Shown: one piece after another, positions 20,473-64,000 of the stretch
How positions within the stretch are numbered: position 1 is the stretch's first letter
How the letters are laid out: each line of letters begins with the position of its first letter
From: Symbiodinium natans
Lineage: Eukaryota; Sar; Dinophyceae; Suessiales; Symbiodiniaceae
Reading direction: 5' to 3'
Length of the DNA: 64,000 nucleotides
Assembly (NCBI GenBank): GCA_905221605.1
Contig: CAJNDS010002390.1
Location: forward strand, 651,113-715,112
Translations under genes and position numbers: made by a program
The notes under the pieces: generated by a model
Told to the model about the DNA's origin: nothing
Seen by the model: the letters and a program-made list of their open reading frames with translations, nothing else
Databases searched by the model: none

Positions 20473-20514
20473 ATGCCGCCCAAAACCGGCGGGAGCACCG
20501 GGCTGGGCAAGAAT
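20473..20514 (+). CDS. CLF1: CLF1 exon 1 with likely start codon
   Basis: GCGGCCATGC is a favourable start context. It reads [14 protein letters not shown] and then a GC donor in phase 0. N-termini of this family vary, so the start rests on context and phase rather than similarity. Confidence 0.6.
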
Positions 20515-62500: not shown

Positions 62501-64000
62501 TTTGCCCAAAACTCTAAACCCTAAACCCTAAAACCTAAACCCTACACCTAAACCCGAATCCCTAAACCCCTGCGTTTAGGGGCTTTAGGATTGCAGGGTC
62601 CTAACCTTGAGGTCCTACAGCACGCAGCTTCCTCAGCTTTTAGTGCTTGGGGTTTAGGGTTTAAGGTCTATTCGCCCTAAACCTTAAGCCCTGAACCCTA
62701 AACTCTAAACCAAACCCTGAAGTCTAAACCCCATATAGGGTTTAGGGTCGTCAGCTGCCATGCTTCAGCTTGGCGAATTCTATGTTCATGGGGCTAAATG
62801 GGCCCTAAAAGGGTTTATGGTTCGTTTAGGGTAGGGATTGTAGTAGTATAGCTATCTAGTCTCAGGGACCTAGTAATCGAGTCCTTAAGAGTTCGAGTAG
62901 CCTAAGTACTCGGTCCTTGGAAGTATAGGCTGGGGTATGCTACACCCTAAACCCTGAATCCTGAACCCTACACCCTAAACCGTAAACGCTCACCCCATTT
63001 TTAGGGTTCATTTGGTTCCCAGTGATGTGGCCCGCGTTGTGAAGGCTTTGGAAGGTACTGGTACGTCTCTATTAGGAGCTTTGTCAGGGGAAGGGTTCAG
63101 CTTTAGCCCATTAAACCGGTTTAGGGTTTAGGGTTTAGGGTTTAGGGTTTAGGGTTTAGGGTTTATGGTGTACCACAAGGCTCGAATGTAGTTCCTTTCC
63201 GGGTAGGGGATTCGACCCAACAAGGTACCTTTTGGGTAGACCTTAAACCCGGACACTCAGGACAGCTGCAAGCAGATGCGTGCCACGGCTGTCATTTTGT
63301 TTACACACCCGGGTGCGGTCGCGAGAACAAACTTCAAGTTGAAGAAGGCATTTTTCCCTAGTCCCTATGCCTATATTGCATAAACTTGAACCCGATCAAG
63401 GTTTGGGGGGGGGGGGGGGGAGGGGGGGGGGGGAGGGCGGGGGGGGGGGAGGGGGGGGGGGGGGGGAGGGGGGGGGAGGGGGGGGGGGAGGGGGGGGGGG
63501 GGAGGGGGGGGAGGGGGGGGAGGGGGGGGGGGGGGGGGGGGGCGGGGGGAGGGGGGGGGGGAGGGGGGGGGGGGGGGGGGGGGCGGGGGGGGGGAGGGGG
63601 GGGGAGGAGGGGGGGGGGGAGGGGGGGGAGGGGGGGGGGGGAGGGGAGGGGGGAGGGGGAGGGGGGGGGGGAGGGGAGAGGGGGAGGGGGGGGGGAGAGG
63701 GGGGGGGGGGAGGGGGAGGGGGGAGGGTGGGGGGGAGGGGGGGGGGGAGGGGGGGTCCTGCATTTTGAAACTCGAGGAGCTCGGAGGATGTGGGCTTGGA
63801 GGGTCTGTGGCTTGCTTGGCGCTTTGGGATTTCGAGTCTCAGCAGGTCCATGCACGCACATGGTGCACAGTCCCTACCTAATGTAGTTCCTTTTTGGGTT
63901 AGTTAAATGGGATTTCAGTATACTACCCGAAAAAGGTACTACATAGGAGCCTTTGGGTAAACCCTGAACCCAAGAGCCCCGCATGAGGCGCCAACAGCGT
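53499..64000 (+). CDS. pentatricopeptide-repeat (PPR) protein, partial
   Basis: Helical-repeat RNA-binding protein, usually acting on organelle transcripts. Repeats read YQAIVTACARAAQWREALQV / DQMQWDSIQPN, then CNSAISACGRGSCWPG / ALALLQELRARK, then RVDLVGLNATAKALAKASRW, then DVVTYTVLMEAAQ / RSWSRAFDALHELRQRAS and PNLEVLQHAA. Joined across introns they keep a 35-residue period with Trp at position 13, Ala-Leu at 16-17 and, where visible, Met at 23 and Pro at 30. This fixes several splice sites, including GA donors. The style (NSAISACGRG, W, ALxLL) is that common in dinoflagellate PPR proteins. The start is not found and the gene runs off the window. At least one exon is missing between 58.7 and 61.7 kb. 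The target RNA is unknown. Confidence 0.9.
54237..54291 (+). CDS. PPR exon b
   Basis: DQMQWDSIQPNLSSTSVA continues the motif in register (Met 23, Pro 30). The donor is GC after GTT or GT after GCT, both in phase 0. Confidence 0.9.
54590..54775. repeat. TTTAGGG block
   Basis: About 26 units, among the longest G-strand arrays in the window. Confidence 0.98.
54786..54911. repeat. fold-back element FB3
   Basis: CAACTAGGACCCAGAGTCG and CCTAGGCTACTCTTGGTC; G-rich loop. Confidence 0.75.
54988..55014 (+). CDS. PPR exon c, tentative
   Basis: 27 nt: RVKRALSVL, with Ala-Leu spacing as in helix B of a PPR motif. AAGCAG acceptor, GC donor, phase 0 both ends. Confidence 0.45.
55217..55244 (+). CDS. PPR exon d, tentative
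   Basis: 28 nt: EGVVSSKLW plus G, GC donor. Its length is exactly what is needed to bring the next exon into the PPR frame. Confidence 0.45.
55297..55372. repeat. TTTAGGG block
   Basis: About 10 units with one GATTAGG variant. Confidence 0.96.
55385..55660. other. unique GC-rich segment, several open frames
   Basis: Open over 75-80 codons on the plus strand in two frames and on the minus strand in two frames, one of them longer. No domain recognised. It lies between TTTAGGG-type blocks in a PPR-gene intron. Confidence 0.35.
55928..56046. repeat. (CCCTTAAA)n array
   Basis: About 14 units of an 8-mer variant with an extra T, some CCTTAAAG. Confidence 0.95.
56139..56186 (+). CDS. PPR exon e
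   Basis: CNSAISACGRGSCWP plus G: classic first helix of a PPR motif. GC donor. Confidence 0.92.
56727..56874. repeat. fold-back element FB2
   Basis: TACTTGGAGGTTCATGGTACC and GTACCTTGAATATTCAAGTA. Confidence 0.82.
57230..57562. repeat. higher-order telomere-like repeat
   Basis: About ten copies of a 25-35 bp unit of the form AACCCTAGAAACCCTAAACC plus CCTATA or CCAATA. Confidence 0.9.
57579..57616 (+). CDS. PPR exon f
   Basis: ALALLQELRARK in register. A GA donor at 57617 gives an exact 35-residue period to the next exon; a GC donor five bases on would break phase. Confidence 0.9.
57640..57830. repeat. about 60-bp tandem repeat
   Basis: Three copies of a unit with GGGGGAACTTAGGGGGTTTA, then GGAAGTTGAGGGAGTTTAGG and GAGTTTAGCGAG. 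Confidence 0.85.
58606..58674 (+). CDS. PPR exon g
   Basis: 23 codons containing RVDLVGLNATAKALAKASRW then RQ. GC donor. The CCCTAAA block ends just before the acceptor. Confidence 0.93.
59151..59257. repeat. fold-back element FB5
   Basis: TTGGGATGTTCCCCCTTATA and GTATAAGGGTAACATCCCAA at the ends. Confidence 0.92.
59290..60290. repeat. dispersed degenerate 46-bp repeat
   Basis: About eight decayed copies of a unit with ACATGGGGCTAAAGGCTCCG, then GGGCCTCCCGGGGCCTTGAA and ATCTTT, mixed with telomere-like blocks. Confidence 0.75.
59932..59991 (+). CDS. possible PPR exon
   Basis: LEFYDIYRNMKTIELTP looks like the second half of a PPR motif and lies between CCCTAAA and TTTAGGG. However, it is three residues too long for the 35 register and overlaps a dispersed repeat. 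Confidence 0.3.
60360..60480. repeat. TTTAGGG block
   Basis: About 16 units with two variants. Confidence 0.97.
60860..61000. repeat. fold-back element FB2
   Basis: CACTTGGAGGTTCATGGGTA and TACCCCTGAACCTTCAAGTA. Confidence 0.84.
61669..61709 (+). CDS. PPR exon h
   Basis: DVVTYTVLMEAAQ plus AG. GT donor. An earlier acceptor (CTCCAG) would add SAE upstream. Confidence 0.9.
62262..62356. repeat. fold-back element FB7
   Basis: TAGTTGCTTGAGAACCCCC and GGGAATTCTTAAGCTAA. Confidence 0.85.
62399..62456 (+). CDS. PPR exon i
   Basis: SRSWSRAFDALHELRQRAS. A GA donor (TCG then GACTGG) gives an exact 35-residue period with the next exon. Confidence 0.88.
62597..62626 (+). CDS. PPR exon j
   Basis: GPNLEVLQHA, with Pro at position 30 of the motif. 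The end is uncertain; the frame continues ASSAF. Confidence 0.65.
63023..63050 (+). CDS. PPR exon k
   Basis: DVARVVKAL, with Ala-Leu at 16-17. GA donor. Entry phase is not reconciled with exon j. Confidence 0.55.
63261..63287 (+). CDS. PPR exon l
   Basis: DSCKQMRAT after CTCAG; Met falls at position 23 when joined to exon k. GC donor. Confidence 0.6.
63404..63755. repeat. G-rich (GGGGGGA)-like tract
   Basis: About 350 bp almost purely G with scattered A and few C or T. It produces several long Gly- or Pro-rich false open frames on both strands. Confidence 0.97.
63874..63960. repeat. fold-back element FB1
   Basis: CTACCTAATGTAGTTCCTTT and AAAGGTACTACATAGGAGCC. Confidence 0.9.

Follow-up and report, generated by a model that had tools for sequence, protein, structure and literature searches.

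Oriented telomere-type repeat arrays flank short exons in genes of the dinoflagellate Symbiodinium natans

A 64,000-nucleotide stretch of the genome of the dinoflagellate Symbiodinium natans (contig CAJNDS010002390.1, positions 651,113 to 715,112; C2078:651113-715112 in the 759-Mb assembly of 2543 contigs), referred to here as the window, contains 26 exons of a gene for CLF1, a crooked-neck-like splicing factor, and exons of a PPR gene. The exons of these genes tend to be preceded by arrays of CCCTAAA-type units (C arrays, or C arms) and followed by arrays of TTTAGGG-type units (G arrays, or G arms), both read in the sense of the gene strand. This arrangement around an exon is called a collar in the text that follows.

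The CLF1 gene was modelled with our own spliced protein-to-DNA alignment, which uses donor and acceptor dinucleotides and is blind to telomere repeats, and all exon boundaries in this study rest on homology or codon score. The query was a profile of 46 homologs; the best matches of a composite CLF1 query, P0076-P0121, are 651-852 amino acids long and derive from transcript-sized contigs or transcriptome sources. The alignment places 26 exons at 20464-47917 on the plus strand of the window, and the gene continues with 10 further exons outside it (locus L144, C2078:736113-744500), giving 36 exons with a median length of 39 nt and 34 introns with a median length of 937 nt. Model exons 27-50 of the 50 in the window run (junk past exon 26), model exons 11-13 of the 13 in L144 and all 12 model exons of L126 were left out before counting. 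The donors of the 34 introns are mostly non-GT (GC 23, GT 6, GA 4, CA 1), while the acceptor is AG in 34/34 and is followed by G in 32/34, although the alignment scoring favours AG and GT/GC/GA. Donors of the GC, GT or GA type and AG/G acceptors (the slash marks the splice site) are the published splice sites of dinoflagellates (PMC10666404), and the CLF1 introns carry this signature of dinoflagellate spliceosomal introns.

The first CLF1 exon (20464-20514) has a start codon near 20473; C-type arrays are also found upstream of it at 20090-20228, where a trans-splicing acceptor might sit. Exon 2 (22079-22141) stands between a C array at 22039-22052 and a G array at 22192-22213, and exon 3 (23468-23536) has no telomere-type unit in collar orientation within 120 nt. 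Exon 4 (24589-24621; 33 nt, donor GC) is preceded by a CCCTAAA array of 13 units (24479-24569, minus strand) and followed by a TTTAGGG/TTTGGGG array (24662-24724, plus strand). The 39-nt exon 5 (25382-25420) has 11 CCCTAAA units upstream (25241-25352, minus strand) and four TTTAGGG units downstream (25442-25476, plus strand). Exon 6 (26180-26212) ends at a GA donor, and exon 7 (27182-27228), with a GT donor, lies between a CCCTAAA array (27103-27150, minus strand) and a TTTAGGG array (27277-27318, plus strand). Almost no collar surrounds the 88-nt exon 8 (27842-27929), which is followed by exon 9 (29523-29542; 20 nt), exon 10 (30728-30787) and exon 11 (31748-31783), the last with a C array at 31680-31721 and a G array at 31839-31934. 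Exons 12 (32495-32539), 13 (33288-33318; donor edge uncertain, modelled as CA) and 14 (34643-34681) precede exon 15 (35694-35738; C array upstream at 35576-35679), the 15-nt exon 16 (37206-37220), exon 17 (37895-37941), exon 18 (38856-38913; C array upstream at 38752-38835) and exon 19 (39453-39489). Exon 20 (40233-40306) is enclosed by arrays at 40175-40214 (C) and 40316-40357 (G). Exon 21 (40664-40696) follows, and exon 22 (42347-42384), like exon 3, has no unit in collar orientation within 120 nt. Exons 23 (42981-43035), 24 (44155-44187) and 25 (45634-45674) each have both arms, with C arrays at 42864-42946, 44060-44115 and 45434-45592 and G arrays at 43059-43092, 44207-44257 and 45704-45852, respectively. 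Exon 26 (47894-47917) is the last within the window. The CLF1 introns also contain poly-G and poly-C runs of more than 60 nt (22558-22620 and 32143-32207), and a MITE-like repeat of about 145 nt (MITE, miniature inverted-repeat transposable element) is present in both orientations at 9213-9357, 24996-25128, 47130-47274 and 56725-56874, two of its copies sitting in the middle of CLF1 introns 4 and 25.

The PPR gene (53499-62450, plus strand) was modelled by spliced alignment to a PPR consensus. Eight of the 23 plus-strand model exons were retained by eye (53499-53562, 54237-54272, 56149-56186, 57579-57616, 58606-58678, 60673-60717, 61669-61709 and 62399-62450); the other 15 and all 17 minus-strand model exons were left out (total scores 217 plus, 81 minus). 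These exons are on the same strand as CLF1 and lie between its exon 26, which ends at 47917, and its later exons some 37 kb further on, which suggests either a nested gene or a scaffold misjoin. Together with exons from four genes elsewhere in the genome, the total sample is 70 exons from six genes, of which 34 are from CLF1 and 28 were predicted by codon score; several window sizes were tried, and some stretches of the assembly are missing.

Telomere-type units are far more frequent in the window than its composition predicts: TTTAGGG occurs 1106 times on either strand, compared with 46.5 in dinucleotide shuffles (sd 6.6, largest 66). Within 100 nt downstream of the 26 CLF1 exons, TTTAGGG is found at 14 and CCCTAAA at 2 (circular-shift means 6.6 and 7.3), while within 100 nt upstream CCCTAAA is found at 15 and TTTAGGG at 2 (means 7.4 and 6.5). 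The sum in the right orientation, 29, has p = 0.0004 over 5000 circular shifts. Counted in successive 50-nt bins over the 34 introns, TTTAGGG units number 33, 34 and 20 from the donor and 6, 5 and 4 from the acceptor; CCCTAAA units number 59, 68 and 28 from the acceptor and 4, 12 and 17 from the donor. Finer, 20-nt bins running outward from 42 exons (34 of CLF1, 8 of PPR) hold 7, 36, 40, 34, 24, 17, 12, 8, 5 and 3 CCCTAAA units upstream and 4, 19, 29, 19, 13, 11, 13, 16, 8 and 5 TTTAGGG units downstream. In the opposite orientation the counts are 0, 3, 3, 3, 2, 4, 1 and 5 (TTTAGGG upstream) and 0, 1, 8, 5, 6, 7, 5 and 10 (CCCTAAA downstream). The units thus peak about 20-100 nt before the exon (CCCTAAA) and about 20-80 nt after it (TTTAGGG); the C arm has dropped to the background level at about 140 nt, and the G arm declines more slowly. 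The stretch between array and splice site, often 10-60 nt, is unshared sequence.

These results confirm an observation made in the initial annotation of this DNA, that telomere-type repeats oriented with respect to splice sites lie beside them, and place it beyond chance. Furthermore, 16 of the 17 splice sites that it named are exact edges of the repeat-blind models (13 in CLF1, 3 in PPR), only 49552 not being recovered. Its statement that the repeats sit at both ends of most introns goes too far: within 150 nt, at least one end carries a unit in the right orientation in 33/34 CLF1 introns, but both ends do so in only 12, with one end marked in 21 and neither in 1.

The initial annotation also took the intron to be the unit of this arrangement. 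The amounts of array at the two ends of one intron are, however, uncorrelated (rho = 0.05, p = 0.76, 34 CLF1 introns), while the two arms that flank a single exon vary in step (rho = 0.43, p = 0.012; 34 CLF1 exons, 120-nt window). The CLF1 exon-level correlation ranges from 0.26 to 0.65 across windows of 60-200 nt, and reaches 0.71 (p = 2e-5) in 28 exons of other genes. Permutation within genes gives p = 0.0004 at the exon level over the full set of 70, and 0.0048 once CLF1 is removed; the intron-level p over all genes is 0.49 (63 pairs of adjacent exons, some with unpredicted exons in between). Regional array density was ruled out as the cause of the covariation across exons, as the partial correlation is unchanged after accounting for it (partial rho = 0.43, p = 0.005, n = 42 exons), and points of the same geometry in intron interiors do not covary (mean rho 0.08, sd 0.16). 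These random interior points in CLF1 introns do have an unexplained G-then-C correlation (rho = 0.30, 186 pseudo-replicated points). Arrays at both ends of one intron lean, if anything, towards mutual exclusion, with odds ratios of 0.11 at 150 nt (p = 0.053), 0.17 at 100 nt (p = 0.067) and 0.6 at 60 nt (p = 0.51).

The two array kinds are perfectly complementary, and the annotation had suggested that the two ends of an intron pair in RNA, looping out the intron and joining micro-exons. Predicted pairing energies locate the advantage elsewhere. In 100-nt windows, the flanks of one exon pair better with each other than with swapped partners (-65.4 versus -56.8 kcal/mol, sd 3.2, p = 0.003; p = 0.022, 0.003 and 0.003 over three window sizes), whereas intron ends have no such preference for their own partner over a swapped one (-57.3 versus -55.7 kcal/mol, p = 0.32; p = 0.28-0.46 across the three sizes). 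Minimum-energy folding of 32 exons together with flanks of up to 1.3 kb, weak evidence as predicted folds of repeats are, pairs 583/1064 C-arm bases and 322/581 G-arm bases across the exon; in 13 of the 32, C-arm bases take part in such pairs. Some arms are predicted to pair towards the introns, as looping would have it (144/1064 C-arm bases upstream, 166/581 G-arm bases downstream). With no own-partner advantage and no covariation, intron-end pairing was ruled out as the organising rule; the tendency of arrays at the ends of one intron to exclude each other also speaks against looping, which we regard as very improbable.

A further suggestion in the annotation was that each intron could be a mobile unit bounded by telomere-like inverted repeats; it would then be a transposon of the introner type. 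Dinoflagellates do have introners whose ends carry inverted repeats (PMC7789003, PMC10666404), and direct repeats at the edges of the CLF1 introns are slightly longer than in swapped pairs (mean 3.06 versus 2.71 nt, sd 0.14). When the 34 masked introns were compared by blastn with the window and 20 loci, a narrower search than one of the whole genome, the matches fell in mid-intron, and only introns 11 and 34 had matches within 15 nt of an end. Introner families found no support within this set, since almost nothing is common at intron ends. The interior arrays in the window CLF1 introns do not nest, and a transposon with terminal repeats would leave unexplained both the uncorrelated arms of one intron and the unshared sequence that often separates array from splice site.

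The age of the introns bears on the same question. Intron positions were compared for 9 of 75 proteins. The alignments of five (P0061, P0065, P0072, P0075 and P0035) end within 3 residues of introns 3, 5, 6, 7, 8, 11 and 12, which we read as probable shared intron positions, and those of the same five continue, in one or another, through introns 4, 7, 8, 9, 10 and 11. P0003 and P0068, whose alignments cross most or all intron positions, are perhaps transcripts. All seven CLF1 introns at these apparently shared positions carry arrays at one or other end, so array presence is not restricted to new introns, a further point against the mobile unit. Overall, introns as mobile units are not favoured, and we consider that reading quite improbable. 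Covariation across the exon, its absence across the intron and arrays at shared positions indicate a collar centred on the exon, and not terminal repeats of the intron.

The two arms differ in quality, the donor-side arrays being more degenerate (28% perfect units) than the acceptor-side arrays (49%). Unit variants are common to both arms at no more than chance level (0.566 for own arms, 0.569 for swapped arms, n = 19), which speaks against one arm having been copied from the other; fold-back template switching was rejected on these variants, though n is only 19. A different origin at the DNA level would have breaks near exons healed by telomerase at both ends and then rejoined, so that exon-bearing pieces would resemble telomere-capped fragments and introns fused ends. 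The orientation of the arrays around an exon is indeed that of a chromosome end (C strand left, G strand right), the arms covary per exon, and vertebrate double-strand breaks are known to acquire telomeric insertions (PMC8537989). Under this reading every piece should be capped, yet the order of arrays inside the window CLF1 introns is near random (GC 17, CG 11, GG 10, CC 9), 19/47 transitions being GG or CC. Moreover, G-then-C arrays seldom abut, with a gap of less than 25 nt in only 1/56 cases in the window and 2/73 in nine other loci, and the introns at shared positions carry arrays too. Such an origin is rated improbable.

The collar recurs in other genes. Upstream of the 8 PPR exons CCCTAAA is found at 5 and TTTAGGG at 1, and downstream TTTAGGG at 4 and CCCTAAA at 2; the sign test on this gene alone is not significant (11 to 4, p = 0.12). 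Exons elsewhere were predicted by codon score in array-rich 10-kb loci, and the four loci whose predicted products match Pfam were retained: L136 encodes ankyrin repeats (E = 2.9e-43), L146, with its gene on the minus strand, a decapeptide repeat protein (E = 1.3e-20), L135 a DUF218-like protein (E = 4.1e-6) and L137 a peroxidase-like protein (E = 1.2e-4), the last two matches falling short of the curated Pfam cut-off. L134 was left out for want of a Pfam match, and L126, L130 and L145 were scored but stand outside the Pfam comparison. Among the 28 codon-score exons, C units outnumber G units upstream in 20 and the reverse holds in 5; downstream, G outnumbers C in 17 and the reverse holds in 7. 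In the minus-strand gene, L146, the collar orientation is present upstream of 6/6 exons and downstream of 5/6. When pooled, the four genes agree with the collar pattern.

Gaps between arrays point in the same direction. In nine other array-rich 10-kb samples, 51/73 C-then-G gaps are 75-150 nt long, compared with 18/73 G-then-C, 19/52 G-G and 11/32 C-C gaps. C-then-G gaps of 70-180 nt are also more exon-like, with a median coding score of 7.6 (n = 59) against 2.4-2.9 for the three other gap classes (n = 68; p = 1e-7). Across the genome, a pattern of two C units and then two G units, separated by 80-110 nt, has 83,227 matches and the G-then-C order at the same spacing has 35,412, where one array pair can yield several matches. 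The local sample yields 41 C-then-G and 18 G-then-C matches at 80-110 nt, and 53 and 99, respectively, at 300-330 nt. Overlapping matches to four-unit TTTAGGG number 853,942 on the forward and 852,709 on the reverse strand of the genome. In viral contigs the C-gap-G pattern gave 0 stretches and five TTTAGGG units gave 5, while five CCCTAAA units gave at least 119 stretches in prokaryote contigs.

Arrays are not found everywhere in the genome. Six of 18 ten-kb samples (L127, L128, L132, L133, L147 and L148) are free of arrays of two or more units; the samples (L125-L138, L145-L148) are not strictly random, as two border the window and another four were sited on C1 around the first match of that contig. 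Among the array-free samples, L132 contains near-identical open reading frames (ORFs) 8.4 kb apart next to ABC-type ORFs, and L133 contains copia-like retroelement ORFs. PRP8 (PF08083) was considered as a second micro-exon gene and dropped, its PROCN domain lying within one long ORF with 5 telomere-type units nearby. Many long single-exon ORFs are among the best matches listed for kinase domains (PF00069), and C1019:16657-35637 holds a run of equal-scoring kinase-domain ORFs, several of them about 1.6 kb apart. The arrays may therefore accompany intron-rich genes.

Position, orientation, covariation of the arms and the reappearance of the pattern in several genes, including a minus-strand gene, establish a collar centred on the exon. 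Its orientation is symmetric under strand reversal and cannot, by itself, separate a cause in RNA from one in DNA. A cause in RNA is favoured by the tight position just inside the splice sites, by the marking of 33/34 introns and by the density of C units in the last 100 nt of the 34 introns (127 units, 0.037 per nt), about twice the intron mean for both orientations together (605 units in 33,386 nt, 0.018 per nt). We therefore lean, tentatively and at somewhat less than an even chance, towards a reading in which telomere-type repeats have been retained as strand-specific splicing signals that help to define micro-exons. Telomere-type repeats would have entered introns in very large numbers, and those near splice sites would have been kept in the strand sense that aids splicing. 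C-rich RNA before the acceptor and UAGGG- or GGG-rich RNA after a mostly non-GT donor would aid exon definition, and exons of about 40 nt would thereby be recognised as units by the splicing machinery. The arrays may work as intronic enhancers that bind proteins, by forming stems that connect one side of the exon to the other, or in both ways. UAGGG is a preferred site of hnRNP A/B proteins, and C-runs are one of hnRNP K/PCBP. In human genes, coding-strand G-quadruplex motifs are enriched at weak 5' splice sites (PMC9065059).

Selection could also have acted only negatively. Arrays would then have inserted or expanded at random within introns, with no positive function, and only wrong-way arrays near splice sites would have been purged: TTTAGGG holds a decoy acceptor, TAG/GG, in genes whose acceptors are AG/G, while CCCTAAA has no G and so contains no splice site. 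Consistent with such a passive filter, AGG occurs only 27 times in the final 60 nt ahead of acceptors, fewer than the 51 that intron interiors predict and the 84 counted after donors, and the interior order of arrays is near random. The filter predicts depletion, yet C units near acceptors reach about twice the mean; TTTAGGG also brings decoy GT donors, yet it is enriched after donors; and the covariation across exons is left unpredicted. We rate this explanation as rather unlikely.

Several results count against retention as splicing signals. The density of G units near donors (67 units, 0.020 per nt) is only slightly above the mean of 0.018 for both orientations, which also favours the passive filter. 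CLF1 exons 3 and 22 have no collar and exons 8, 12, 16 and 17 next to none, and exon length, ruled out as the driver, does not predict the amount of array. The exon-level rank correlation in CLF1 is not significant in the 60-nt window (p = 0.14), and with presence/absence scoring the association is positive but not significant in three windows (p = 0.11-0.46). L136 has no downstream bias (G over C in 4 exons, C over G in 5). Masking the telomere units abolishes the pairing advantage of exon flanks, which means that the pairing test restates the covariation of amounts and provides neither independent support nor evidence of further complementarity. Two points weigh against stems: exons with a single arm are still oriented, which fits linear signals better, and in Caenorhabditis elegans stems across an exon promote skipping and circularisation (PMC8330042), the opposite of what a coding exon needs.

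The arrangement resembles several known systems in part. The introners of Amoebophrya (PMC7789003) and Prorocentrum cordatum (PMC10666404) likewise combine inverted simple repeats near both intron ends with dinoflagellate genes and unusual splice sites; there, repeats of 8-20 nt were sought within 30 nt of each end and mark intron families, whereas here telomere-type arrays take their place, in amounts that track the exon, and the ends of the examined introns have almost no sequence in common. Inverted repeats at the two ends of one intron, a feature of introners, occur in 12/34 introns within 150 nt, and their amounts do not covary. Interstitial telomeric sequences at DNA breaks (PMC8537989) are also telomere-type repeats inside chromosomes, and tandem units away from chromosome ends are present throughout the window, but here they are very many and are placed and oriented relative to exons. 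With the G-quadruplex and G-run signals of 5' splice sites (PMC9065059) the arrays share a G-rich RNA strand right after the donor; human 3' sites are enriched in both strands, whereas the arrays before acceptors here are mainly of the C-rich strand and consist of telomeric units. Reverse complementary matches around exons (PMC8330042) are similar in placing complementary repeats on both sides of an exon, and covariation, pairing and folds reveal such complementarity here between the introns on either side of an exon; those matches promote skipping or circularisation, while the repeats here surround coding exons needed for a conserved protein. Inverted simple repeats at dinoflagellate intron ends are already known (PMC7789003, PMC10666404, PMC11453091). 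Among the papers listed, no description of telomere repeats beside exons or at intron ends was found in titles and abstract openings, subscription papers and supplements lying outside that literature. Paired intron ends have been proposed to matter in the nonconventional introns of euglenids. The introns described here differ from these in having AG acceptors in 34/34 cases and in end pairing that is not specific to the intron.

A broader version of the proposal, that telomere repeats have given rise to a genome-wide system of exon definition, possibly with a stem that holds the exon in its loop, and that this system made extreme fragmentation into exons of about 40 nt tolerable, is doubtful. 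If telomere-type repeats do serve as splicing signals, this would link them with splice-site recognition, two matters that are normally separate, and would provide a natural experiment in recognising exons whose length is insufficient for ordinary exon definition. If the arrays arose instead by healing at the DNA level, they would be a record of massive telomere-type healing within genes. The collar itself offers a simple sequence rule for gene annotation in a genome that is very rich in introns.

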